Source: Parvularia atlantis (taxonomy: Eukaryota; Opisthokonta; Rotosphaerida). Taken from it: a stretch of 35,855 nt of DNA. Position 1 is the stretch's first letter. Each line of letters opens with the position of its first letter. A program made the translations under genes and the position numbers. The DNA lies in contig CALSCO010000311.1 in the NCBI GenBank assembly GCA_943704415.1, forward strand, positions 1 to 35,855. Direction: 5' to 3'. Shown one piece after another: positions 1-27,383 of the stretch. Below the pieces are notes generated by a model. The model saw only the letters and a program-made list of their open reading frames with translations, was not told the origin of the DNA and did not search any database.

Positions 1-80
1 CCGTCTTTGACGAGGCCATCCGCGCCGTGCTCAGCCCCGCCGCGCGCCCGAAGACCAAGAAGGGCTGCGTACTGCTCTGA
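1..80 (+). CDS. Rac/Cdc42-family small GTPase, C-terminal end only (partial)
   Basis: The reading frame from base 3 to the TGA at 78-80 gives a 25-residue tail that begins VFDEAIRAVL, runs through a short basic stretch (PKTKK) and ends GCVLL. This is the last helix, polybasic region and CAAX box of Rac/Cdc42-type Rho GTPases. The terminal leucine predicts geranylgeranylation, so the protein should be anchored on membranes, where such GTPases control actin and polarity. Only the last exon fragment is inside the window; the GTP-binding motifs lie to the left. VFDEAIRAVL looks more like Rac, while CVLL is the usual Cdc42 ending, so I do not choose between them. The 254 bp between this stop and the next start codon show nothing I can name beyond a GC-rich promoter and UTR. 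Confidence 0.85.
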   Translation, partial: VFDEAIRAVLSPAARPKTKKGCVLL

Positions 81-334: not shown

Positions 335-3300
335 ATGGCGAGCAAAGCAGCGGCAGGGGCAGCAGCTGGGGCAGCAGTCGGCGCACGGGCGCCCACAGCA
401 CAGAACGAGAGCGGCGGCGGCAGCAGCAGCGGCAGCGGGGGCAAGGGCGCGCTCGAGCTGCCCGTCGGCTTCGCGCCGCCCGCGCCCGCGCAGGGCTCGG
501 GGCTGAGCAAGAACGCTAAGAAGCGGCAGGCCAAGAAGAAGGCGCGCGCGCGGCGCGGTCGGGGCGCACCAGGGGCTTATCGCCGTCGCCGCGCCAGGCT
601 GACGGGTCCGTCCTGGCCAGCGAGGTGCACCACGAGGCCGGCAAGGCGGACGAGTTTCTCGTCGTGCAGTTTACGGAGCTCGGCTTCCAGCCGCAGGCTG
701 CGCGGTGCGTCGGCTCTGTGCGACGTGCGTCCGGGCGTCTGACGCACACCTGCAGCAACACCCTTATCGCCTGCAACAACGACTTTGACCAGACCCTGCA
801 GATGCTCCAGGCCGCCGGCGTGGCCGTGCTGTCGCAGGTGTGCGGCCGGCAGGGCACAACCGGGGCGCACTGCTCACGCTCACGAGTGAACGCAGCCGTC
901 GCTGCAGGACAAGCGCCCCGAGGGCACGCGCAACGACGAGGGCGTGGCCAAGCTGATGGAGATGGGCTTCTCGACCGCCGACAGCCGCCAGGTGCGGCGC
1001 GCTGGCACGGCAGCCACTTGTGCAGGCGTGTGACGCCCCGACCGCATTGCGCTAGGTGCTAATCGAGACCGGCGGCGACGTCACGCGCGCGATCGATCTG
1101 CTCGTGCAGCGACGCACCCCGGCGGCCGCGCCCAACGGCAGCGCCCCCCTGGCGGCAAAGTGCGATGCGCGTGCGTGCACACACGCCGCTGCTGACGCGC
1201 CGTTGGCACACAGGGCATCGCCGGGCGCCGCGAGCGCCAAGCAGCCCGTGCAGCGCGCATCGGCCGCACCGCAGCAGCAGAGGGCGACGCCGCAGACGCT
1301 GCAGCAGACGGGCGCGTCGTGGGCGGGTCCGCTAGCGGCTAAGCCTGCGCCGGTGGCGGCCCCGGCTCCGGTGCCAGCCCCGAGCAAGCCGGCCACGGCC
1401 GCGGCCGCACCGCCGTCGGCGGGCGGATGGCGCGTGGACGACGAGTGCGAGGCGCTGTACACGGCCGACAACACGTGGTACAAGGCGCGCATTGAGAGCA
1501 TCTCGCCCGACGGGAAGGCGTTCAGCGTCTACTACGTCGAGTACGGAAACCGCGAGACGCTCGGCGCGTCGTCGCTGCGCCATGCGACCTCGGCTGCGGC
1601 GGCCACGCCGCCCAGGCCCGCGCCATACAAGCTGGGCGACGAGTGTGAGGGCTGCTTCACCGAGGACAACGTCTGGTATCGCGCACGCGTCGACCGCGTC
1701 TCGCCCGACGGCCAGACCATCTCGGTGACCTACACCGAGTACAACAACTCAGAGAACCTGCCGCTTTCGCGCGTGCGCCCGCTCAGCTCGGCCGGCAGCC
1801 GCGCCACCGCAGCGCCAGCCCCGGTACCAGCACTAGCTCCAGCACCTGCGCCGGCTCCCGCACCAGTGCTCGCGCCCGCGCCCGCGCCCTCGCCCGTCTT
1901 CAAGCCCGGCGACACGGTCTTGGCGCAGTACACTCTCGACAACGTCTGGTACCCGGCTGTCATCACCGACTCGTCGTCCGACCGCGCCACGTTCACCGTG
2001 CACTACACCGAATACGGCAACACGGAGACGCTGCCGGCCGTGCGCATCCGCCCGCTGGGCGTCAAGCCGATAGCCGCGCCCGCGCCCGCCGTGACGGTCG
2101 CCCCGGTCAGCGTTCCCAAGACCGTTGAGCCTGCTGCTGCAGCGCGGTCGCCGGCCTCGCCGCCGCTCATCCTGCAGCCGGGCCTGGTGGTCGAGGCGTG
2201 CTTCACTGAGGACTCGCAGTGGTACACGGCCACGATCGTCGCCGTCGCGCCCGACCGCCTCACGGTCACGGTCAACTACGTCGAGTACGGCAACAGCGAA
2301 ACTCTGCCGATCGCGCGCATCCGCCGCCCGACCCTGCCGGCCAGCGCGCCCGCCCTGCCGGCCGACGGGCCACCAACCCCTCCTGTTCCGTCGCTCGTCG
2401 CCGCGGCGCTGCAGTCCGGGACGTCCATCGCCGTCGGCCCGCCCGCGGCGGCAGCGCCCGCCAAGGCCGCGCCTGCGCCCGCGCCCGCACCGGCTCAGGC
2501 AGCGGCACCCGCGCCGGCGTCGGCACCGGCCTTTGCCATTGGCCAGGTCGTGCAGGCGCAGTGGACCGAGGACAACGTCTGGTACGAGGCGCGCATCGAC
2601 GCGGTCGCGCCGGGCGCGCAGTACGCCGTCACGTACCTCGAGTACGGCAACGGCGAGACGCTGCCGGCCAGCCGCATCAAGGCCAAGGTGCCCGTCGCAC
2701 CCGTGGCCGCGCCGCAGCCCGTCGCCGCCCAGCAGCCCGTCGTCGCTCAGCAGCCCGCGCCCGCGCGCGTGCCGGCCACCGTGTCGCGCGCCCCGGCCAT
2801 CGAGGCCAAGTACAGCGTCGACGGCCAGTGGTACCGCGCCGAGATCCGCAAGCAAGATCCGCAGACGCGCCGTGTGCTCGTCGTCTTCCCTGAGTACGGC
2901 AACGAGGAGGAGGTCGGTTTGGAGGACATCCGCACCGTGTCTGCGCCGGGCCTGCAGCCGCAGCCGCAGCTCCTGCCGCAGCCCCCGCAGCAGCCGCAGC
3001 AGCCGCAGCAGCCGCAGCAGCCGCAGCAGCCCCGTCTGGTGCAGCCGGTGGCGAGCGTCGCTGCGCCGGCCGCTGCCTGGGCCGTCGGACAGCGCTGCGA
3101 GGCACAGTACGCGGCCGACCTGCAGTGGTACCCGGCCATCATCCGCGAGGTCAAGCAGGGTTCCGTGCGCGTGATCTACCCCGAGTACGGCAACGAGGAG
3201 GAGGTCCCGTTCGAGCGCCTGCGCGCACCCGCGGCCCAGGGCGCGCCAGGCCTTGGCGTCAGCTTCCAGCCGATGGTCAGCGGCGTCGTGCCGCCCGGCC

Positions 3301-3488
3301 GCGCCGTGCCCGGCCCATACCAGGCGTTTGCGCCGCTCCCCGCCGCGCCGATACTGGTGCCCGCGGCCGGCGCCGCGTGGGGCCTACCCGGCCAAGTGGC
3401 CGCCGTGCCGCCGCGCACGCAGCAGCCGGGCGCCGCGTTTGGCCTTGGCAGCAAGTCGGCCTGGGGTGCGCCCGGTGGCACGCGGTGA
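335..3488 (+). CDS. Protein with two UBA-like segments and seven Tudor domains
   Basis: Five exons: 335-541, 598-704, 756-837, 908-991 and 1056-3488. The N-terminus is low complexity and ends in a basic SKNAKKRQAKKK stretch. Exons 2-3 join into a UBA-like segment (FTELGFQPQAAR, then NTLIACNNDFDQTL), and exons 4-5 into a second one (LMEMGFSTADSR, then VLIETGGDVTRAIDLL). The long last exon carries seven SMN/SPF30-type Tudor domains. Each has a D-x-x-WY strand and a Y-x-x-YGN type strand holding the aromatic-cage residues (the second has YNN), and they are separated by Pro/Ala-rich linkers. Near 2955-3035 there is a Gln/Pro repeat linker. Tudor domains of this class bind symmetric dimethyl-arginine and UBA domains bind ubiquitin, so a role in RNA-granule or splicing-factor assembly with ubiquitin recognition is inferred. 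The first intron appears to use a GC donor (542-597), because no GT donor keeps phase. Start ATG 335 is the first one in frame with the basic segment. Confidence 0.85.
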
Positions 3489-3696
3489 TGCGGTCCCGCC
3501 GCCCCAGGCGCGCTCATCGAAAAAAAAGTCGCGCGTCCCGCTTGCGTGTCGCTCTCTGCGCCGGTGCTCTTTGAGGCTCTATGTGTGCCCGTGTGTGCGT
3601 GTGGGGCTTCAAGTGGATAGACGGTGGTTGGCAGCGGCGGCAAACGAAAACAAGCAATCGTCAAATGCGTGTGTGAGTGCATGACTGCGTGGGTGC

Positions 3697-5168
3697 TCAC
3701 GGCTCGTCGCCGTCGATGAGCTGTTTGTACAGCTTGCGGCGCGACGGGTCCTGCCGCGCGCGCACAGAAGTGCCGTTCAGCCACACGTGCGCGCCACACC
3801 GCCGCGCGCACCTTCCGACGCCGCCGCTTCTGCGACACCCACCGCCCGAGCCGCGGCGCGAGATTCTGCTCCCAGGCGACGGCGACGAGCAAGTGTGCAA
3901 GTGCAAAGCCAAAGATGGCCACGCGCCACAGCAGCGGCACCTGGCGCAGCGCAGCGTCAAGCGCACGCGCAGACAGGCGCATACGGGTCGCACTTCGACG
4001 AGCACAAAAAAGTCGCTCGTGAGGCTGTCAGGCACGAAGAGCATGTAGAGCGTAAAGAGCGTGAGCACGGCCAGGGTCATCATGAGCCACACTGGCGTGC
4101 GGCGTCAGGTGTGAGCGGTGTGTGCGCGGCAGCGACCCCGCACCGTTCGAGAAGATCGACTTGCGGTAGGCGCGGCCCGTGCTGAAAACGACGCTGCCCG
4201 AGATGTACAGGAAGCACGAGAACAGGAACAGCGTCGTGTTCTCGGCGCACTCGTACTGCGTGCTGCCGACCGACGGGCCGCCGGCCACCGGCGCGAGCGG
4301 CGTGTACCTGCAAGCACCGCTGGCGTCAGCCGCGCACGCAGCGAGAGCGCTGCACACGCGCTGCGCACCAAGCCTGCGTCTTCAGCATGAGGTAGACGAG
4401 GATCTGGAAGAGCATCTGGATGCCGATCTGGCCAAAGAGCGAGATCATGATCGACGGCGAGAGGAGGCTGCCCGTGGGGGACTTGCGCGCGAGCTGCTCG
4501 CTAGCGGTCGTGAGCGCCATGCTGAGCGAGAGCGGGAGGATGACGACGAGGTCGATGAAGAGGAACTGGACGTCGCCCAGGTTCGAGTCGATGCCGTACA
4601 GGATCGAGACAGTGATGGTCTGGATCATGGCGTAGAACGACATGTACTTGAAGCAGCTGAACGACGTCACCAGCGCCGCGCGCCCCTCTCGGATCAGCTG
4701 CAACACCGAGCCGATGTGCATGTCCAGGCTCGAGAACGGCGCGGCCACCGACGCCTCCACCGTCGACAGCGACAGGCCCACGTCGGCCGCACGCAGGGCC
4801 CCGCAGTCGTTCGCACCGTCGCCGACCATCGCGCAGGTGAAGCCGAGCGTCTGGAAGTCCTCGAGCAGGGCCTGTTTAAGGTGCGGGAGCATACGCGCGT
4901 AGACGTGGCACCGCAGCAGCAGCTTGTGGAAGAGCACGGGATTGAGTGCGCGCTTGAGCCGCTCATAGTCGTCGCCCGTGATCGACACCTCGGCAAACAC
5001 CACTTCGCCGTCGCCGTCGCCGCCCTCCTGCTCGGCTGCCTCCTCCTCTTCCTCGTCGTCGTTGTCGTTGTCGTCGTCATCAGCGTTCTCCGGCGCCGCT
5101 GCCACGGCAGGCGTGGCCGGCTGCGATGGCGCAGTGAGCGCCTCGTCATCGTTGTACACCACCGACAG

Positions 5169-5201
<33 letters not shown>

Positions 5202-8200
5202 AGCTTTGCTAAGTGAGTCCATCTGAATGGCGACGTGGTCGCTGCCATTGCGCGCCTGCGCGGGCGTCTTGCCCTCGACGGCGCTTGCGCTTGCGCGCTT
5301 GTACGGCAGCCGGTACGCCTGCACCCGACTCGTGAGCTGCTCGGTGGTGAGGCCGCGCGGTGGGTGCGTGGCGCCCGTGGCCGCGTTGTCGCTCGCGTCC
5401 AGCCGGACCCAGCGCACGCGGTTGCTGGCGGGGCCGTCGCTAAAAACGGGGCGATAGACGGGGCAGTTCTGGCGCTGAATGCCGCACTGGCGCGCGACGC
5501 TGCTGGCCGTGAGCACGTTGTCGCCCGTGACCATGAACGTGCGGATGCGCGCGTGGGCCAGCAGCGCCAGGGTCGGGATGGTCTGCTCCTTGAGCGCGTT
5601 CTCCATCACAAGCAGGCCTGCAAACACGACGTCGCTCTCGGTGGCCTGCCTGCGCCCGCGGCCGCGTCAGAGAGAGGGCGCACGCCCCGCACGCCCCGTA
5701 CGCGTCACGCGCACCTCGCCAGCGCGGCGACGTCCTGCATCGTACGCACGCCCGGCAGCAGCTTGTAGGCCAGGCCGAGCACGCGGTAGCCGCGGTGGGT
5801 GTAGTGTTCGAGCTGCCGGTCAAAGTTGGCCGGGACGCTGTCGGGGCGGGCGAGGCGGCGGACGACCTCGGGCGCACCCTTGATGTGCGCCTGGAAGCGC
5901 TGGTGCATCGTGTCAAACACGACGACGCTCATGCGCTGCACGGCCGAGTCGAAGTCGAAGCAGCGCGCGATCCACAGCTCGTACAGCTCGTCCGGGCTGC
6001 GCACTATGCCGCGCACCGAGCGGGCCAGGGCCGGGTCGGCGGCGCGCATGCGGAGCTCGCGCGCGTCGCCGAGCTGCGGCGCCGGGCCGAAGGTCCACTG
6101 CGAGAACTCGAGCATGCGCACGTCGACCGGGTCGCCCACGACGGCGCCGTTGAGCAGGAGAAGCGAGTGCGTGCTCGCGAGCAGGTGCCGGAGCGTGACC
6201 GCGCCCGCGCCGTCGGCCGTCTCGGCCGCTTCGGCCTCGGACAGGTTGCGCACGAGCGCGCCCAGCTGGCGGTCTTGCGCCCCCTGGCCAATCACGCCGA
6301 CCACCTGCAGGTCGTCCTCGGTCAGCGTGCCGGTCTTGTCGAACGCGACGCAGTTGAGCCGCCCGGCAACGTTGACGCGCGGCGGCGAGATGCAGAAGAT
6401 GCGCTTGCTCTTGAGCCGGCTGAGCGCGAACGACGTCCCGATCGTCATCGCCACGGGCAGCGCGGGCGGGACCGAGACCGTGATGAGGTCCGCGAAGCGA
6501 AGCAGGATCTTCTGCCACGAGGCCTGCGGCGGGCGTGGTGCGGGTGAGCGCGCGGCCACTTGCGGCGCGCCGACCACGCACGTGCAGGCTGATGTACGTG
6601 TACAGGCTGTAGGCGAAGCCGAGGGCGGCTGTGCGCGACGCCCGTCAGGTGTCAAACGCGTGGCCGAGGGACCGGCACGCACCGACAATGCCCATGATGC
6701 CGATGAAGCGGAACGAGTCGCGCACAAACGTGAACCGGCTCGGCCGTGGGAAGAGGATCGAGCGGATGAGCTGGCCCTTGGCCGTCTCGAAGCCCGTGCG
6801 GACCACGAACGCCACGACGCGCCCCGCGCCCGCGTGCGACGCCGCGGTGGTAGGCCGCACGGCCAGCGGCTGCTGCTCAAGCGTCTGAATGACGCTGGTG
6901 CCGGCGAAGAGCATGTGGCGCTTGGACGTGCGCGCCTCGGGCACGATCATGTGCGGCGGGCCGGTCTGGAGCAGACCGCGGCTGAGCGACTCGCTGGCGG
7001 AGAGCACGGGCGCGGGCGACTTGGTGACGGGGATGGACTCGCCCGTGAGCATCGACTCGTTCGCGATGCACGAGCCGACGACCATGAGCGCGTCGCACGG
7101 CACCACAAAGCCGTTGGCAGTAGACGGAATCTCGATTAGGTCGCCGGGCACAAGCGCGGACGACGGCATCTCGGTCCCTGCGAAGCCGTCAGTCACGCGC
7201 TCACTCACGGCGAGATACTACTACTAACGCACAGCCCGTGGTCAGGAGCACGTTGACTACGCCGTCGTAGCGCGCCATGCTCTGGAGCTTGCGGATGTTC
7301 TGGCGCGCGAGCGGTCAAGCGACGGCGCCGTACGCGCACCCCGCACGCGCGCACCTCGCGCAGCTCACGCAGTGACATCACCACCGACACGGCTGAGACG
7401 ATGAAGATGGTCGTGGCGTAGTAGTAGTACTCCTCGATGAACCACACGGCGATGCTCAGCAGTTGGAAGACGTAGAACGGGTGGATGACCTCGTCCAGCA
7501 GCAGGCGCGGGATCGACTTCATCGCGACCTCGACCGCGTTGCTGCCAAACACCGCGCGCCGGTGCGCCCGCTGCGCTTCGGGCTGCGGCGCGTTGCCGAA
7601 GCCGCTCGCGTCGGCCGGCACGCCGCGCTCAAAGATGTCGCAGCACGCGCTGCGCCGGCGCGTCAGACGGTGCGTGCTGCGCGCACGCGACCGCCGGCAC
7701 GTGCCTCGGCGCTTCAAAGTAGCCCGACGTGGGCGATAGCACGTAGCGCGCGTAGCGGTAGCGGAGCACGCGCAGCAGCGTCTGCAGTGCTTGGTGAGTC
7801 ACGACGCGTTCAGCCCGGAGCCGCGCGCGCACCGTCCCGGAGGCCGCGACCAGCTCCACCGGGTGCACCGTGACCTCGCCCGCGCTCGTCTGTGCGCGCG
7901 CGCGCGCGCGCAAGGGGCGTGAGTGCGCATGAGGGGCATGACGGCGGCGCACGGCACCGTCGCCTTCACCCAGTGCGCGTCGGCGAGGGGCGCGCGGCGG
8001 CAGGCCAGCAGCAAGAACAGCTGCGGGTACACGTCGCTGACGACGTAGACGAGCCCGAGCGACGCCACGCTCGCGAGCCAGAACAGGACCTTGCCCGCGG
8101 GCCACGCGGCGTACCCCTCACACACGGCCTGCGCACACGCGCGCACACGCCGTCAGGGTTTTGCATGCGCCGCCCGCGCCGCGCCCCGCCGCACCGTCTG

Positions 8201-13726: not shown

Positions 13727-13954
13727 CCCCCGTCAGCCAGCCCCCCGAGCATGCCGCGGGCCGGAATGAGGCCCGGGCGCAATCATCAATGCACGCGGCG
13801 ACCCCCGACCGAGGCCGGAAGGGCCGAGCCGTGGCAGGCTTCATGCTCTGCTCGGGTGGCGTCGTGTCTTCCACCGGGGTGAGTGAAAGTGTCAGTTTTG
13901 GAAAACTTGACAACAGATATCTCCTATGCATCGATCCAATTGAGCACAGTCGAT
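13727..13954 (-). ncRNA. U3: U3 small nucleolar RNA gene (box C/D type)
   Basis: Read on the minus strand, this AT-richer island matches the order of U3 elements. The 5' end, near TCGACTGTGCTC, is followed by a box A-like GGATCGATGCATAG (13924-13937; human GGATCATTTCTATAG). A 5'-domain hairpin follows (13890-13912). Box B is GAGCATGAAGCC (13837-13848; human GAGCGTGAAGCC), box C is CATTGATGATTG (around 13783-13788; human CATTGATGATCG), and box D is CTGA (13733-13736). A stem pairing 13744-13749 with 13851-13856, continued by CATG/CATG, separates the D end from the B/C motif, as in the known U3 fold. The length of about 228 nt compares with about 217 in human. U3 guides the early cleavages of the 18S precursor in the nucleolus. 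I could not place box C' with confidence, and both ends are uncertain by a few bases. The surrounding 13614-14162 gap holds no protein gene. Confidence 0.8.
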
Positions 13955-17352: not shown

Positions 17353-17434
17353 GGCCGCGTGATGCGTTCAGAGTACGTATGTGCGTCACGCTGCCAGTGC
17401 ACTGGACAGTTTGAGAGGACACCCGGGTGTACCC
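17353..17434. promoter_or_regulatory. 82-bp divergent promoter between OGDH and POM152
   Basis: The interval separates the two start codons and contains a perfect 12-bp palindrome, CCAGTGCACTGG (17394-17405). The core CCAGTGCACTG occurs once more in the window at 24004-24014, in a 3'-3' gap. No TATA-like sequence is visible. The palindrome could bind a dimeric factor serving either gene. Confidence 0.45.
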
Positions 17435-20400
17435 ATGACCGTCGACGGCGTGGCGCGGCGCCAACTGGCTGCGGCCGTCTTTGTCGCGCTGCAGGCCGCC
17501 AAGGCCGCGGCGTGGTGGCAGCGCGACGGCGCGGGCGTGCTCGGCGACCCGGCGCTGTGGACCGCGCTCGACATCGCCTTTGTCGTCGGCCTCGCCTACG
17601 CGCGCGTCCCGCGCATGACCGTGGGGCCGGCCCGCGCCGTCGTCTTTGTCATGCTCCTGGCCCTGCTCAACCTGCGCATGTTTGCGGCCGCGCCCGCCGC
17701 CGGCCTCGCCACGTCGGCCGCGGGCGCCGTGCAGAAGCAGCAGCAGCAGCTCCTGCAGCAGCCCCAGCAGCAGCAGCAGCAGCAGCAGCAGCTCACCACA
17801 CCGACCACGACCGCCCTCCCGCACGTCGGCGACCGCACCGGCCTCAGCCTCGTCTCGCCTGCGTCGCCCTTCGACCTGTCGGCCGAGTTTGTCGAGGTTG
17901 CACCGGGCGGCTTCGGGTACGGTGGCGACACTGCCGGACGCGAGGGGGCCGCGGCGGCGGCGCGGCGCGTGCTGCACACGGACCTGCCCTTCCCTGGGCT
18001 GGTGTCGCTGCACCTCGTCCTGCGCCCGCGCGCGCGCTTCCGCCCACCCGGCAACCCCGTCAGCGTCGGGGCGCTGATCCCGCTGCAGATCGAGTGCAAC
18101 CCGCCGTGCGTGCTCCAGTACCGCGTCGCCCCGCTCGACCCCGCCGCCCTCGCTCCGGCCGCCGTCATTACCACCCGCAGCATCAGCGACACGCGCAACC
18201 AGAGCGTCCTCGCCGACGCGACCGGGCGCTACACCCTCGTCAGCATCCGCGACGTGCGCGACCAGCTCGGCGTGGTCGGCAACGACACCGTCGTCGTCGT
18301 CATCGGCCCCGTCGTCTTCCCGCCCCGGCCCGAGCGCCCACCCACAGCGCGCTTTGTGCCGCGGCAGCGCGGGCCCGACGCGCTGCCCGTGCACGCCTGT
18401 GCGGGCTCGCCGCTGCTGGCGCGCGTGCGCCTGACCGGGCGGGCGCCGTTCACGCTCACGGTCGACCAGCGCGTACGTCAAAGCGGGCCGGTCACGCGCA
18501 CGTCGCTCGTCGTGCTGGAGGAGCACCGCATCCGCGGGCGTGCCGACCGCTACCGCCTCGCGCTGGGCACGCTCGAGACCGAGGGCCCCGTCGTGTGGCA
18601 GATCTCGGCCGTGACGGACGCGCGCAACCTGACGCGGACGTACGCGCCGGACGCATTTGGTGCGGCGGGCGCGGCGCGCGGCGCCGACCGGGTGCCGCGC
18701 CTGAGCGTGCTGGTGCACGGCCTGCCGACGGTGTCGTTCGGGGCGGAGCACGTGACGTTTGTGCTGGCGCAGCAGCGCGTGCGCGCGGTGCCGCTGGACG
18801 TGCGCGGGGTCAAGCACTGGCCGCTGCGCGTCAAGGTGTGGGACGGCGTCGCAGCGCCGTTCGTGGCCGAGGTGGCCAATGTGACGGGCGCGCACGTCAA
18901 CGTGACCGCGACGGGGACGTACACGCTCGTGGCCGTGCGCGACGCCTACTGCCGTGGCGTGGTCGTGGCGCCGGCGACGGTGCAGGTGGTGCAGCCGCCG
19001 GCGCCGACGCTCGCGCTGGACAACGTGCCGGCGCACGTGTGCGAGGGCAGCGCGATGGTGGCGGTGCGCGTGCGCGTCAACGGCACGGGCCCGTGGCTGG
19101 CGACGTACCGCGAGACGCGCGGCGGCGGCGGCGGCGGCGGGAACCAAGCGCCGACGATGCACCAGCTGCGCATCGGCGTGGCCGACTACGAGTGGAAGCT
19201 GCTGCCGCACGGTGCGGGCCGCGTGCGGTACGAGTTCCTGTCGCTATCAGACTTTTACTACGAGCACGTGCCGCTGTACGACACGGCGCTCGACCTGGAC
19301 GTGCTCCTGCCGCCGTCGGCCCACTACGTCGACCCTGCGCCGGCGCTGCACCTGTGCTCGCCGCAGGCGCGCGCGTCGGTCGCCGTGGCCCTGGGGGGCG
19401 CGGCACCGCCGTTTGTGCTGCAATACTCGCTGCATCTTGGTGCGGAGCGGCAGTCGTTCCAGCTCGAGGGCCTGCGCGAGGCCGAGGTGGCGCTGCCACT
19501 GGACGCGTTTGGCACGCGCGGGCGGTACCGGCTGGTGCTCGACCGCGTGCGCGACGGCTCGGGCTGCGAGACGGTGCTGCTGCGCGAGAAGGCGGTGGTG
19601 GTGGAGCTCGTGGCGGCGGAGCTAGAGTGCAACGAGGACGAGGCCGTGGTGCACGCGAGTGGGGGCGTCGAGCCGTACACGGTCGAGTACCGCGCGCCGG
19701 ACCAGAGCGTGGCGACGGTGATGGGCGCGGCCGGGTCGGCTGTGCCGCTGCCGGTGCGCGGCTCGGGCGTGTACCAGCTGCTGAGCGTGCGCGATGGGCA
19801 CTGCGCGGGGACGGTCGTGCCGGAGCGGAGCCAGTGCATGCTGCGCATCGTCGAGCGGCCGACAGTGACGCTGCGGCCGGCGGGGCGCACGTTCTGCCTC
19901 GCACCAAAGCTGCGCGTCGCGGCGCTCGACTTCACGGGCTCGTCGCCGCCGTGGCGCGTGCAGTACACGGTGCGGGGCGCGGACGAGAAGGTGACGGACG
20001 CGCTGACCGGGGGCGGGGCGGACGCGGCGGTGCCGCCGCTCGTACTCGAGGCTGCGCAGCCGCTCAACCAGCCGCTCGTGTTCAGCCCCGGGCGCGCGGG
20101 CAAGTACCACGTGCGGCTGACGCGGCTGTCGGACGCGCACTACCGCACGGGGCTGGCGTTAGACCTGGCGCTCGACTTTGATGTGGTCGTGGCCGCGTCG
20201 CTCGCGCTCGAGCCGGCGGCGCTGGGGCCTCACGCGCTGTGCGTGGGCCAGACGCTGCGGCTGCCCGTGCGCGTGGAGGGCGGCGCGGTGCGGGTGCGCT
20301 ATGCGATCGTGTCGTCGGCTGGCGGGCGCGAGGAGCGCGAGGTGGCGTCGGTGACGGTGGGGACGCGCCGCGCGCCGGCGACGCTCGAGGTGGGCCCGTT

Positions 20401-21125
20401 TGCGGCCGAGGGCACGTTCACGGTCGAGGTGGTGTCGGTGACCGACGTGCAGCGCGGGTGCGAGACGCGCGTGGCGCTGCGGAGCGGCGTGATCGTGGTC
20501 GGCGCGGTGCCGACGCTGCAGTGGTCGCTGGCGGCTGCGGGCGAGCTCGAGCTGTGCGTGGGCGAGCGCGTGCAGTTTGACCTGGGCGACGCCGCCGCGG
20601 GCCCGTGGACGCTGCGCTACACGTTTGACGGGGAGGAGCGGTCGCACGTGGTCACGCACAGCCCGTTTGCACTGCAGACGCGGACCGAGGGCCAGCTGCG
20701 CGTGCACACGGTCGCCAACCGGTTTTGCAGCGCGAGCGTGGCGCTCGAGCGGCGCGTGCGCGCGCGACCGACGGCGAGCCTGGACCGGGGCCAAATTGTT
20801 GAGGAGGACCTGGCCGAGGGCGAGCGCCGGACGCTGCTCGTGTCGCTGATCGGCGCCGCGCCGTGTGCGTTTGCGTGGCGCGCGCCGCGCGCTCTCTCGT
20901 GCGTGCGTCTGACCGACCTGTCGCGGCGCAGTCAACGTGACAATCCAGCGCACGTCGTTCTTCGACGACGACCCGCAGATGCTCGAGCTGCACGGCCTGG
21001 CTGGCCCGGACTACCGCTTCGAGGTGGACAGGGAGGGCCAGTACAAGATCGTCTTTGTCGCGGACCGGTACTGCCACAACGACGGCATCCACCGGCGGCT
21101 GCGAGACGGGACGGTCGCTGTGTGA
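17435..21125 (+). CDS. POM152: POM152-like nuclear pore membrane nucleoporin
   Basis: Two exons (17435-20864 and 20932-21125; the intron is needed to reach the conserved last repeat) give about 1207 residues, near the 1,200-1,350 usual for Pom152. Residues about 12-100 form three hydrophobic segments (FVALQAAK, TALDIAFVVGLAY, VVFVMLLALLNL), as at the N-terminus of fungal Pom152. A poly-Gln linker follows. Most of the protein is then a string of Ig-like lumenal repeats, each ending in a GxYxLvsvrDxxCxG type signature (for example TYTLVAVRDAYCRG, YQLLSVRDGHCAG). The last exon supplies FNVTIQRTSFFDDDP and a final YKIVFVADRYC. Pom152 forms the perinuclear lumenal ring of the pore. The family is described mainly from fungi, so this is a useful lineage marker. 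The start is the first in-frame ATG; upstream codons in the frame start only with GTG. A gp210-like protein is the main alternative, but the membrane topology disfavours it. Confidence 0.82.
17765..17791 (+). repeat. (CAG)9 microsatellite coding poly-Gln in POM152
   Basis: Nine uninterrupted CAG codons follow a shorter Gln/Leu/Pro stretch just after the third membrane segment of the POM152-like protein. The tract encodes a flexible linker between the membrane region and the Ig-like repeats. A pure codon run in a GC-rich gene is likely to vary in length between strains. Confidence 0.9.
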
Positions 21126-21207
21126 CCGGCGGCTTGGATTGGTTGCACTTGAGGTGTTGTGTCTGGTCACTGTACCGGTATGTACATGCACCAGGCTACA
21201 TGAACTA

Positions 21208-22855
21208 TCAAAAGTCGGGCGGCACGGCAACCGAGCGCGCGAGCGCGGCCTTGAACGCGTCGGTGTCAAACGAGCCGTCGTCGTTGTCAAAGGGGATCCA
21301 CGGCCGGACGGCGGTCGACAGCAGGAAGCCGCGCGCGAACATGGTGAGGCGCTCGGGGTTGCGCAGGCGCGCGCACATGCCCGAGAAGCCGCTGCGCGAG
21401 GCGACGAGCACGTCGGCGATGATCTGATGGTGGATTGTGAGCACGAGCGACTCGTTTAGGTGGAACAAGACGCCCTCGAGCGGCATGAGCTCGGCAAAGT
21501 TCGTCTCGGCGTCGCCCTGCGAGTAGATGTGGAAGCGCACGGGCACGCCGGAGATCTCGGCGATCGCCGCGCGCATGGCGTTGATCAGCCTGACGTAGAC
21601 GGCATTGCTGGTGAAGCGCGACGGATTCTTGGACTCCTGGTTGCGCGCAGCACGCGCGTGTGAGGGGCCGGTAAGGGCGGGAGCGCAGCGCGCACCGAGA
21701 CGTCGCCGCGGCGGATATGGATCGCGACGTTGATAAAGGCCTCGTCAAAGCGCGACTTGATCGGCATCTGGCGCGGCGGCGTCAGCATGTGCACGAGAGC
21801 TCACTCACACGACGCACCAACGAGCGCGCCCAGGCGTACTTGTGCCGGAAACGCTCCTCGACGGCGGCCTGCTGCACGCCGACGCCGCGCGGGATGTGGG
21901 TGAGGTCGGTGTAGACGATGTTGCACTTGTCACGGTCGGCGTCGAGGTCGCGCATGAACATGTCGATGTTGCTTGTTTGGAGCGACTCGATCGGCTTGAT
22001 GGTGAGGCAGGGCAGGAAGCGCTCGCACGGCAACGGGACGGCGCCCTCGATGCACGCCTCGCGGTAGCGGAAGGGCTCGTCGATGCCGTAGCCGAAGATG
22101 CCGTCGAAGAGGTAGCGGTCGTTCTGGTTGGGCACGACCGGGTGATAAAGCAGGGTTAGGTTGAGGTGGTGTGCGGCGTGGAACAGGAGCTCGGTGTGGA
22201 AGATGTAGTGGCCGACGCGCGAGCCGCGGTCGGGCACGTGCGCGAGGTAGCGCCGGCACGCGCCGCAGTACTTGTCGGTCATGCGCTGGCGCTGCTCGGG
22301 CAGGGTGCGGCGCGCGAGCGGGTTGAAGCCCATCGCGGTCTCGTTGGTGATGGTCGCGCGCACGCCGTCGCTCTCGCGCAGGTACAGGTCGCGTGTGCTC
22401 TCGGTCTCGATCCCGACCGGGTACAGCGGCTCGGGCCAGACGGCGGCGTGGATCGCGCTGCGGTCGCGACTGGGCACGGCGCCGCGCGGCTTGTCGGCGG
22501 CGGCGGGTCGTTCCTGCTCGGGCGCTGGCGCAGGATCTCCCGATGCGGTCGCCTCGACGACGACGGCGGCGGCGCCGGGCGCGGTCGGCTCGGCGGCGAC
22601 GGGCTCGTCGGCAGCGGGATCCGCCGGCGGCTCGTGGTGGTGCGCGTGGCCGCCTCTTTGGTATGACGCGGGTGCCGCGGGTGCCGGCCGGCGCGGGGCG
22701 ACGTCGAGCGGCCGTCGCGGCGCGAGCAGCGTCGACGCGAGCAGCAGGACGGCGACAACGGCCAGCACCAGCGCCGTGCAGCGCGTGCGCCCGTGCGTGA
22801 GCGCCGCGCGCCAGCCGGGCTGCGTGGTTGAGCCTCCTCCCCTCCGCCGCGACAT
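21208..22855 (-). CDS. Type II membrane glycosyltransferase, HRRGD fucosyltransferase class
   Basis: Three exons (21818-22855, 21696-21767, 21208-21636) give 512 residues. A short basic cytosolic end (MSRRRGGG) is followed by one membrane anchor (TALVLAVVAVLLLASTLL) and a Pro/Ala-rich stem, the layout of Golgi glycosyltransferases. The middle has IFHTELLFHAAHHLNLTLLY, and exon 2 carries INVAIHIRRGDVS. H-x-R-R-G-D is the GDP-fucose-binding motif shared by alpha-1,2 and alpha-1,6 fucosyltransferases, NodZ and protein O-fucosyltransferases. Exon 3 continues with AVYVRLINAM, FHIYSQGD and a conserved HHQIIADVLVASRSGFSG block. A fucosyltransferase-superfamily role in the Golgi is inferred; acceptor and linkage cannot be told. 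It shares its promoter with the next gene and is convergent with POM152, with 82 bp between the stops. Start 22855 is chosen because it places the basic end directly before the anchor. Confidence 0.75.
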
Positions 22856-25238: not shown

Positions 25239-25311
25239 TGGAGCCTAAGGGAATCGAACCCTTGGCCTCATCGATGCGAACGATGCGCTCTACCAGCTGA
25301 GCTAAGACCCC
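25239..25311 (-). tRNA. trnA-CGC: tRNA-Ala (anticodon CGC)
   Basis: The 73-nt sequence folds as a full cloverleaf: acceptor stem GGGGTCT/AGGCTCC, D arm GCTCAGCTGGTAGAGC, anticodon arm CATCG-TTCGCAT-CGATG with anticodon CGC, and T arm AAGGG-TTCGATT-CCCTT, with A73. The third acceptor pair is G3-U70, the classic identity signal for alanyl-tRNA synthetase, which agrees with the anticodon. No intron is present and CCA is not encoded, as usual in eukaryotes. It reads GCG, a codon used heavily by the Ala-rich, GC-biased proteins here. Internal A and B boxes lie within the D and T arms. Confidence 0.97.
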
Positions 25312-25374
25312 TCGGAACACTCCTCTAGCGTTACGTGGCGAGGTCGGAGAAACGCCCAAGAGTATCCCCTTGCG

Positions 25375-25446
25375 ATGGGCGGGCTGTCGTACCGCGCGTT
25401 CGCGGCGCTGCTTGTGGGCGCGGCGGCGCTGCTGATGTTCCTGGCC

Positions 25447-25496
<50 letters not shown>

Positions 25497-27383
25497 GAAC
25501 GCGGTGGCGGGCACGACGGCGTCAGAGACGACGCACGCCGACGCAACGCGCGCGACGCACAGCGAGGACCCGCACGCGCGCCACGCGCACCACGGCAGCA
25601 AGCACGGGCGCCTCGCGGCGGGGCTCTCGGCGCACGAGCAGCTGCTGCACGGGCTGCTCGACAAGCACGAGGCCGTGCTGGCGGCGGCGGGCACGGCCGC
25701 GACGCCGACCGCACCCGACCAGCTCACGTACATCTACGACGGGCCCCTGCCCGACCCGGCCGAGCTCTCGCTGCGCACGGGCCTGCGCGAGGGCTCGACC
25801 GTGGAGGTGCACGGGCGGCTGTACGGCGCGCTCATCATCGAGATCGTCAGCACGACGCAGGACGTGCTCGTGCACGTCAACGTGCGCCCATACCAGGACC
25901 GCGTCGTCGTCAACGAGCAGACCGGCGGCGTCTGGGGCACCGAGCTCGCGCTGCAGATGTTTGCGCGCGACGGTGCCGACGCCGTCCTCGCGCTCGACGT
26001 CAAGAAGGACGCCTACAAAATCTCGGTCGACGGGCGCGCCGTGGCCCAGTACGAGCATGTCAATGACCCAAATACCGCCCTCACGCTCTCCATCCGCACC
26101 GAGGCCGACCGCCCCAGCCCGAGCCTCGTGGTCAACCGTGTTGTCGTCTTCAACGCCCCGCCCAAGCGCGTCGCCGCCCGCGAGCTGCTCAAGGGCGTTG
26201 AGGACCGCGCCAACGTGCAGCCCCCGCTCTCGCGCGACCGCCCCGTGCGCCTCTTCATCGGCGTCATGAGCCGCCCGAGCAACATCATCAACCGCTTCGC
26301 CGTGCGCAACGCGTGGATGCTCCACCCGGAGGTCAAGAGCGGCAACGTTGCCGTGCGCTTCTTCGTCGGGCGCGACCCGGACAACGCCGACACGACGGCG
26401 GTGCGCGGGGCGCGCGCACGCATGCACACTTCGCACGCGTCTGACCGTGCGGCCGCAGCTCGAGGCAGAGATCAAGCAGTACAACGACGTCGTCATCTCG
26501 CCATACCACGAGGGCTACTACGAGATCGCCAACAAGTCGCGCCATATCCTTGAGGCACGCCGTGTGCCGCCACCAGCCCCGAACGCGCTGACACGCGCGC
26601 GCGCCCTGCCAGGTCGCGTCGACCGTGGTCAGGGCCGACTTTGTGATGAAGTGCGACGACGACACGTTTGTGCGCATCGACCGCATGCTCGAGGTGCCGG
26701 GCTACTGCCCCCCGATGTGCCATGCCTGACGTGCGCACTTCGCACGCGGGCAGAGCCTCAAGAGCATGCCGCCGGACAACCTCGTCTTCGCGACCATCTC
26801 TATGGGCGGCTCGCCCATCCGCGACCGCACGAGCAAATGGTGCACCACCGCGCGCACCGCCGCTGAGCACCGCTCACATTCCGCGCAGGTACATGCCCGA
26901 GTCGGAGTTCCCCGAGCGCAGCTACGCGCCGTTCCCGCACGGTAGCGTGCAGCACGCACCCCGCATCCCTCTCACGCGCGCGCTTGCAGGGCCTGGCTAC
27001 GTGCTCTCAGCCAACCTCGCGCGCGAGATCACCACGGCCTTCAAGGCGCACGTGCGACGCTGCGCGCCGCCTACACGCGCGCCGCGCACTCACGCAGCGG
27101 CGCCGCCAGGAGCTTAAAGCCCTGCGCCTGGAGGACGTCAGCGTGGGCATGTGGATTGACCGCGTGCGGAGAAAACTCGGTACGTGCACGGGGCCAAGGG
27201 TGTGCGCAGGAGATTGACGCACAATCGCGCACAGACCTCGCGATCAACTTTCGCAACGACCGCCGCTTCAACATCGGCAGCTGCAACAGCGGTGACCTGA
27301 TCGGGCACTATATCAACCCACAGCGCATGGTCTGCATGTGGCGCAAGGTCGAGAGCGACGACGCCAACTGGTGCTGCGGGTGA
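25375..27383 (+). CDS. Beta-1,3-galactosyltransferase (GT31) with a galectin-like domain
   Basis: Eight exons (25375-26400, 26459-26554, 26613-26693, 26754-26839, 26889-26941, 26990-27051, 27110-27179, 27235-27383) give 540 residues. A type II anchor (FAALLVGAAALLMFLA) is followed by 15 consecutive Thr (about residues 26-40). A galectin-like beta-sandwich comes next (about residues 120-255): EGSTVEVHGRL, VHVNVRP, the VVVNEQTGGVWG motif and YKISVDGRAVAQYEH. The GT31 domain has LFIGVMSRPSNIINRFAVRNAWM, the DxD motif in MKCDDDTFVRID, GPGYVLSANL and the EDVSVGMWI motif. Galectin plus GT31 is the layout of plant galactosyltransferases such as the hydroxyproline GALTs and of a few other lineages. 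A Golgi role adding beta-1,3-galactose to glycoproteins is inferred. Intron 2 (26555-26612) reads as a GC-AG intron. The start lies 63 bp from the divergent tRNA-Ala. Confidence 0.9.
25450..25494 (+). repeat. (ACG)15 microsatellite coding poly-Thr
   Basis: Fifteen perfect ACG codons encode a run of threonines directly after the membrane anchor of the GT31 protein. The tract would be a dense O-glycosylation stem in the Golgi lumen. Its purity suggests recent expansion and length polymorphism. Confidence 0.95.

Follow-up and report, generated by a model that had tools for sequence, protein, structure and literature searches.

A putative TDRD3-like protein with two UBA-like segments and seven canonical Tudor domains

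Among the described proteins that combine Tudor domains with a ubiquitin-associated (UBA) domain, TDRD3 carries a single UBA and a single Tudor domain after an N-terminal OB-fold (PMC10212539), and Table 1 of PMC12147562 lists it as a single canonical Tudor plus UBA. Its Tudor domain reads methyl-arginine (PMC10212539; PMC3281842), with a preference for asymmetric dimethyl-arginine according to PMC10212539, which gives the symmetric form for SMN and SPF30; PMC12147562 credits TDRD3 with binding of symmetric dimethyl-arginine. For the UBA of TDRD3, binding of Lys48 tetra-ubiquitin has been reported (PMC10657456). SMN and SPF30 (SMNDC1) bind symmetrically dimethylated arginine, in the case of SMN that of Sm proteins (PMC10212539; PMC3281842), and are entered in Table 1 of PMC12147562 with one Tudor domain and no UBA.

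In Table 1 of PMC12147562, whose survey covers holozoans and not fungi, 'multiple' Tudors are listed only for the extended type, chromatin readers appear as double or tandem, no multi-Tudor protein with a UBA is included, and most multi-extended-Tudor proteins are assigned to the piRNA pathway; the same paper adds 12 new groups and leaves 279 Tudor proteins ungrouped. TDRD6 has seven Tudor domains (PMC7072634). The sequence-only reading of the DNA discussed here had held that animal multi-Tudor proteins normally use extended Tudors without UBA, and this agrees with that table. Nevertheless, TDRD3 is not alone in joining a UBA to a Tudor: in a protein of the choanoflagellate A. spectabilis, the nearest precedent from outside animals, a UBA at the N-terminus is combined with an extended Tudor and a DCD domain (PMC7641849).

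The window, i.e. the whole stretch of 35,855 nucleotides that was analysed, contains a gene whose six predicted exons (Table), when joined, give 956 residues with no internal stop. Its ATG at 335 and the last base of its stop codon at 3488 coincide with the span that the sequence-only reading had assigned to one protein, and the Pfam search proposed there, made as two scans that between them span the protein, found UBA twice and TUDOR seven times. The order UBA then Tudor is that of TDRD3, and the two proteins have in common the UBA (here in two copies, the first of them weak) and a methyl-arginine-type Tudor (here in seven copies) in which the TDRD3 cage aromatics and Asn are kept. In contrast to TDRD3, no OB-fold was found: with E up to 1, Pfam matched neither an OB-fold nor an RMI1-type family in residues 1-272, the hit of a DEPS-1 OB model on Tudor repeat 2 (E 0.15) is far below its cut-off, and 254 bases lie between the stop of the upstream gene and the ATG at 335. 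As no OB-fold was found, the TOP3B-binding part of TDRD3 appears to be missing. Judged by its predicted domains, the protein is best called TDRD3-like, an amplified variant and not TDRD3 itself.

Table. Features of the Tudor/UBA gene and of its surroundings (positions in the window)
Feature	Position	Strand	Remarks
Rac/Cdc42-type GTPase C-terminus	3-80	+	CVLL prenylation-type end; best PDB match Rac1, E 0.0057
Exon 1 (provisional)	335-541	+	ATG, Ala/Gly/Ser-rich stretch, then basic motif LSKNAKKRQAKKK at 503-541
Intron 1	542-597	+	56 nt; GC donor, AAG/GCGCGC (slash = exon end); no usable in-frame GT
Exon 2	598-704	+	UBA1 first half, starting at 646
Intron between exons 2 and 3		+	51 nt; GTGCGT..CTGCAG
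Exon 3	756-837	+	UBA1 second half, ending at 822
Intron between exons 3 and 4		+	58 nt; GTGTGC..ACGCAG
Exon 4	896-991	+	UBA2 first part, starting at 929; includes MGF loop
Intron between exons 4 and 5		+	64 nt; GTGCGG..GCTAG
Exon 5	1056-1159	+	UBA2 last helix, ending at 1115; open frame common to Tudor exon
Putative fifth intron	1160-1213	+	54 nt, in frame, without stop; removal uncertain
Exon 6	1214-3488	+	Linker, seven Tudor domains, Pro/Ala/Gly-rich tail, stop
Tudor repeat 1	1416-1592	+	Best PDB match TDRD3, 1.7e-8
Tudor repeat 2	1614-1790	+	YNN replaces YGN; modelled with AlphaFold2
Tudor repeat 3	1887-2063	+	Repeat profile, cage alignment
Tudor repeat 4	2160-2336	+	Repeat profile, cage alignment
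Tudor repeat 5	2520-2693	+	Repeat profile, cage alignment
Tudor repeat 6	2769-2945	+	Longest tree branch
Tudor repeat 7	3066-3236	+	Repeat profile, cage alignment
C-terminal tail	3237-3485	+	Basic, Pro/Ala/Gly-rich; AAWG and SAWG motifs
P-type cation-transporting ATPase gene	3697-7798	-	Short introns; convergent with Tudor gene
U3 snoRNA	13728-13953	-	Rfam, 63.3 bits
POM152-type nucleoporin	17363-21427	+	One long open frame; Pfam
tRNA-Ala, CGC anticodon	25238-25311	-	Overlaps first bases of galectin frame
Galectin-domain frame, stop to stop	25306-26553	+	

That the UBA and Tudor parts form one gene is upheld for UBA2 and the Tudors by a common open frame of 810 codons (1056-3488), which runs from the last helix of UBA2 through all seven Tudor domains. 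The sole Met of this frame is codon 740 (base 3273), and a gene consisting of the Tudor exon alone would therefore lack an ATG start there, so that this exon must be spliced to exons further upstream. UBA2 and the seven Tudors are thus predicted to be encoded by a single gene. One intron interrupts each of the UBAs, which thus lie on exons 2-5, and exons 2-6 appear to be held together by the two intron-split UBA folds and the open frame. One may object that the UBA exons and the Tudor exon are different genes, or that the array is an artefact of assembly, and the non-canonical GC donor of one intron would be in line with this. However, four of the five introns are GT-AG introns of 51-64 nt with GTGCG or GTGTG donors, the end of UBA2 lies in one open frame with the complete Tudor array, and the repeats are too divergent (25-53% identity) to result from misassembly of one unit, which leaves this objection highly improbable.

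Intron 1 needs its GC donor, as use of the GT at 558 would not keep the frame, and for this reason exon 1 is the weakest part of the model, likely but provisional. If the intron is real, its splicing is non-canonical; otherwise, there may be a different first exon or a local sequence error. The neighbouring P-type ATPase gene on the opposite strand likewise has candidate introns of 52, 61 and 76 nt, among others, with GTGCG donors, an agreement between the two genes that is partly built in because only GT-R-N-G donors were listed for the ATPase gene, where one of the five joins tried showed no convincing intron.

Within residues 1-272 of the joined protein, Pfam UBA matches two stretches (E 2.1e-10), in accordance with the earlier claim of two UBA-like segments spread over four exons. 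Taken alone, UBA2 reaches 31.5 bits and UBA1 16.6 bits, against a cut-off of 22.4, so the first segment falls under it. Four UBA-type models match UBA1 at E 0.0025-0.0072, each below its own cut-off, UBAP-1_UBA2, UBA_7 and UBA_8 being among the matches of this rank, and an unrelated NYN model touches the segment as well (E 0.028). Sequence matches in the PDB are weak for both: the TDRD3 UBA (1wji, E 0.016), ubiquilin-3 (E 0.061) and ubiquilin-1 (E 0.077) for UBA2, and UBAP1 (E 0.067) and USP13 (E 0.091) for UBA1. UBA2 has an MGF and, in the last helix, a di-leucine, which are marks of ubiquitin binding in UBA domains; the putative UBAs need not bind ubiquitin.

These two residue motifs, together with the occurrence of two UBAs in series, would suit an adaptor of the ubiquitin pathway or a degradation receptor, in which the UBAs would deliver arginine-methylated clients to the proteasome or to autophagy and the Tudors would only select the clients. 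Yet the shuttles of this kind that possess UBAs, such as Rad23 and ubiquilin, have a ubiquitin-like domain, and Pfam searches of the whole protein at E up to 1 found no ubiquitin-like, PB1 or other docking domain. Moreover, the Tudor array with its linkers makes up most of the protein, and we consider a degradation receptor quite improbable.

The seven tandem Tudor domains that had been recognised from the sequence alone are recovered by Pfam TUDOR in seven stretches (E 2.2e-62), and a search with a profile of the repeats found the same seven in one frame and no eighth among 554 six-frame pieces of at least 30 residues from the whole window. SMN_Tudor matches six stretches (E 1.7e-40). Agenet (E 1.1e-20, two stretches) and DUF4537 (E 3.2e-07) exceed their own cut-offs too, which is expected because these are barrel families of the Royal superfamily. 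In the alignment of the repeats 9 of the 59 columns are invariant. The D-x-x-W-Y motif ascribed to each repeat is present in all seven, and the Y-G-N motif holds for six but fails for repeat 2, which has Y-N-N. At the positions aligned with SMN 102, 109, 127 and 130, which we take to be its cage positions, all 28 cells are aromatic (Phe, Tyr or Trp); the first position is occupied by Tyr in four of the repeats, by Phe in two and by Trp in the remaining one. With SMN N132 as reference for the cage Asn (PMC3281842), this residue is kept in all seven repeats, so that the cages are complete, as expected for the SMN-type Tudors that had been proposed.

The predicted fold of repeat 2 is likewise that of a Tudor domain. 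When this repeat was modelled with AlphaFold2 on an alignment of all seven, the model had five strands and a mean pLDDT of 89.5 (a single-sequence model of repeats 1 and 2 together reached 51.4 and was set aside), and its top Foldseek match in the PDB is the human TDRD3 Tudor (E 6.3e-6, TM 0.86/0.91, rmsd 0.8). Ranks 1-6 are all occupied by TDRD3 Tudor chains (rmsd 0.7-0.9), SPF30 follows at rank 7 and SMN from rank 14, with further TDRD3 chains in between.

Extended Tudor domains, which comprise about 180 residues, were considered and ruled out: the W-to-W spacing between the Tudors is 66-120 residues and the linkers have 10-64 residues, which leaves no room for domains of that size, Pfam TUDOR is confined in its best stretch to the core (profile 44-105 of 121), and Pfam scans over the protein at E up to 1 gave no SNase match. 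The SN-like extension around each Tudor core is thus absent, and the repeats are classed by their sequence as canonical (SMN/TDRD3-type) Tudors. This separates them from TDRD1, TDRD6 and their kin, presumed multivalent scaffolds that resemble the present protein in having several Tudors per chain, but whose Tudors are extended (T3) and for which Table 1 of PMC12147562 lists no UBA. The A. spectabilis protein of PMC7641849 shares the N-terminal UBA with a Tudor outside animals, and differs in its extended Tudor (with a second one in some relatives) and its DCD domain, neither of which was seen here with Pfam. Tudor-SN (SND1) has the string Y-G-N-x-E-T-L-P in common with several repeats, but consists of SNase domains and an extended Tudor.

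With regard to sequence, the affinity of the repeats is divided. Tudor-SN is the best sequence match of the repeat profile (1.1e-15), followed by TDRD3 (5.1e-14), SPF30 (5.9e-13) and SMN (9.8e-13), and it is slightly ahead of TDRD3 for the whole frame (2.6e-8 and 5.1e-8). Repeat 1 alone places TDRD3 first (Table), before Tudor-SN (2.5e-6), SMN (7e-6) and SPF30 (1.2e-5), and for repeats 2 and 3 the highest identity among the rows of our tree is to Tudor-SN (48% and 50%). This tree, the phylogeny of the repeats that had been called for, was inferred from eleven rows (the seven repeats, SMN, SPF30, TDRD3 and Tudor-SN) over 59 columns with 200 bootstrap trees. None of its eight inner branches is strongly supported, and it settles neither a TDRD3 versus a Tudor-SN ancestry nor the common origin of the seven; a branch sets them apart from the other rows in 9% of the bootstrap trees, and a constraint keeping them together is not rejected (p-AU 0.227), which permits a common origin. 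The modelled fold would thus favour TDRD3, and the sequence seems to lean slightly to Tudor-SN.

The affinity to SMN and SPF30 deserves separate mention, as the Tudor of both is canonical and agrees with the repeats in its cage and Asn. The protein could be a splicing or snRNP-assembly factor, the array binding symmetrically dimethylated Sm proteins and the UBAs serving the quality control of unassembled Sm proteins; the SMN_Tudor matches, the fold ranks of SPF30 and SMN and the ligands of these two proteins named above would all be consistent with it. Against it, TDRD3 outscores SMN and SPF30 for repeat 1, for the repeat profile and for the fold, there is no SMN-family Pfam match beyond the Tudor, and one listed Tudor without UBA stands opposite seven Tudors and two UBAs. 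An snRNP role therefore seems unlikely, if less so than the degradation receptor.

A recent amplification of the repeats, with near-identical linkers, had been suggested, and neither part of this suggestion survives. The 21 pairs of repeats are only 25-53% identical, which implies an old amplification, and the DNA of the domains is alike only in stretches of up to 65 nt at 60-83% (the search itself required about 60% identity). The six linkers have 10, 35, 35, 64, 27 and 43 residues and are of low complexity, with 66-96% Pro, Ala, Gln or Val. When the 15 linker pairs were compared with 200 shuffles each, linkers 2 and 4, both Ala-Pro-rich, were the only pair clearly above the shuffles (1 of 200), and the next-best pair, 2 and 5, gave 16 of 200.

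The reading we prefer, and consider slightly more probable than not, is that of a TDRD3-like adaptor without the OB-fold, in which one Tudor has been multiplied to seven, the array binds arginine-methylated RG proteins and the UBAs bind ubiquitin, so that ribonucleoproteins are clustered. A single Tudor would be a weak binder of dimethyl-arginine in an RG-rich tail, whereas a chain of seven, connected by presumably flexible linkers, would provide avidity for proteins that carry many methylated RG repeats; the acidity of each Tudor domain (pI 4.7-5.0) and their number per chain would suit such avidity for basic, arginine-methylated RG tails. Candidate ligands are Sm proteins, RNA-binding proteins, histones and the Pol II tail. 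The UBAs would bind ubiquitin on the same or on neighbouring proteins, and methylated ribonucleoproteins may in this way be gathered into clusters or granules and coupled to ubiquitin-dependent control. The protein would probably act in ribonucleoprotein granules, and the putative scaffold role for RNA granules that had been called plausible seems reasonable. Methyl-arginine reading by Tudor domains, including that of SMN, is reported to regulate condensates (PMC10212539).

A bolder interpretation, which is possible but doubtful, is that a non-animal lineage has independently built a granule organiser from canonical Tudors fused to a ubiquitin-reading module, TDRD3-like by descent and convergent with the germ-granule scaffolds of the TDRD6 type, that links arginine methylation and ubiquitin in RNA granules. 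In what may be a fungus-like organism, an array of canonical Tudors would mean that a multivalent methyl-arginine scaffold had been reached in a separate way, and it would show in a natural setting how condensate formation depends on the number of weak Tudors. Through the UBA pair, arginine methylation and ubiquitin would be physically and directly linked within a single chain, a link that TDRD3 has with one domain of each kind.

The statement that no described family has this architecture agrees with our literature search, in which open-access titles and abstracts yielded, among the matches listed, no family with a UBA and seven canonical Tudors. Pattern searches for relatives gave 600 and 50 matches in viral contigs and 594 in genome contigs, none of them confirmed; as these collections hold viruses and prokaryotes, the result says little about eukaryotes, and unannotated eukaryotic homologues may well exist.

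The window itself is eukaryotic in content, with spliced genes, a U3 snoRNA and nucleoporin and importin genes, among which only the POM152-type nucleoporin hints at a fungus or a near relative of fungi, and its G+C amounts to 67-74% in steps of 2 kb; a scan of 3400-3800 for bacterial-type promoters and terminators found nothing. Upstream of UBA1, the basic motif LSKNAKKRQAKKK, for which a PDB search up to E 10 gave no match, presumably resembles the ribosome-binding tails of eIF2A and PYM. Trp residues 235, 921 and 949 lie in low-complexity segments (SWAG, AWGL and AWGA), which are reminiscent, in their sequence, of WG-type short motifs.
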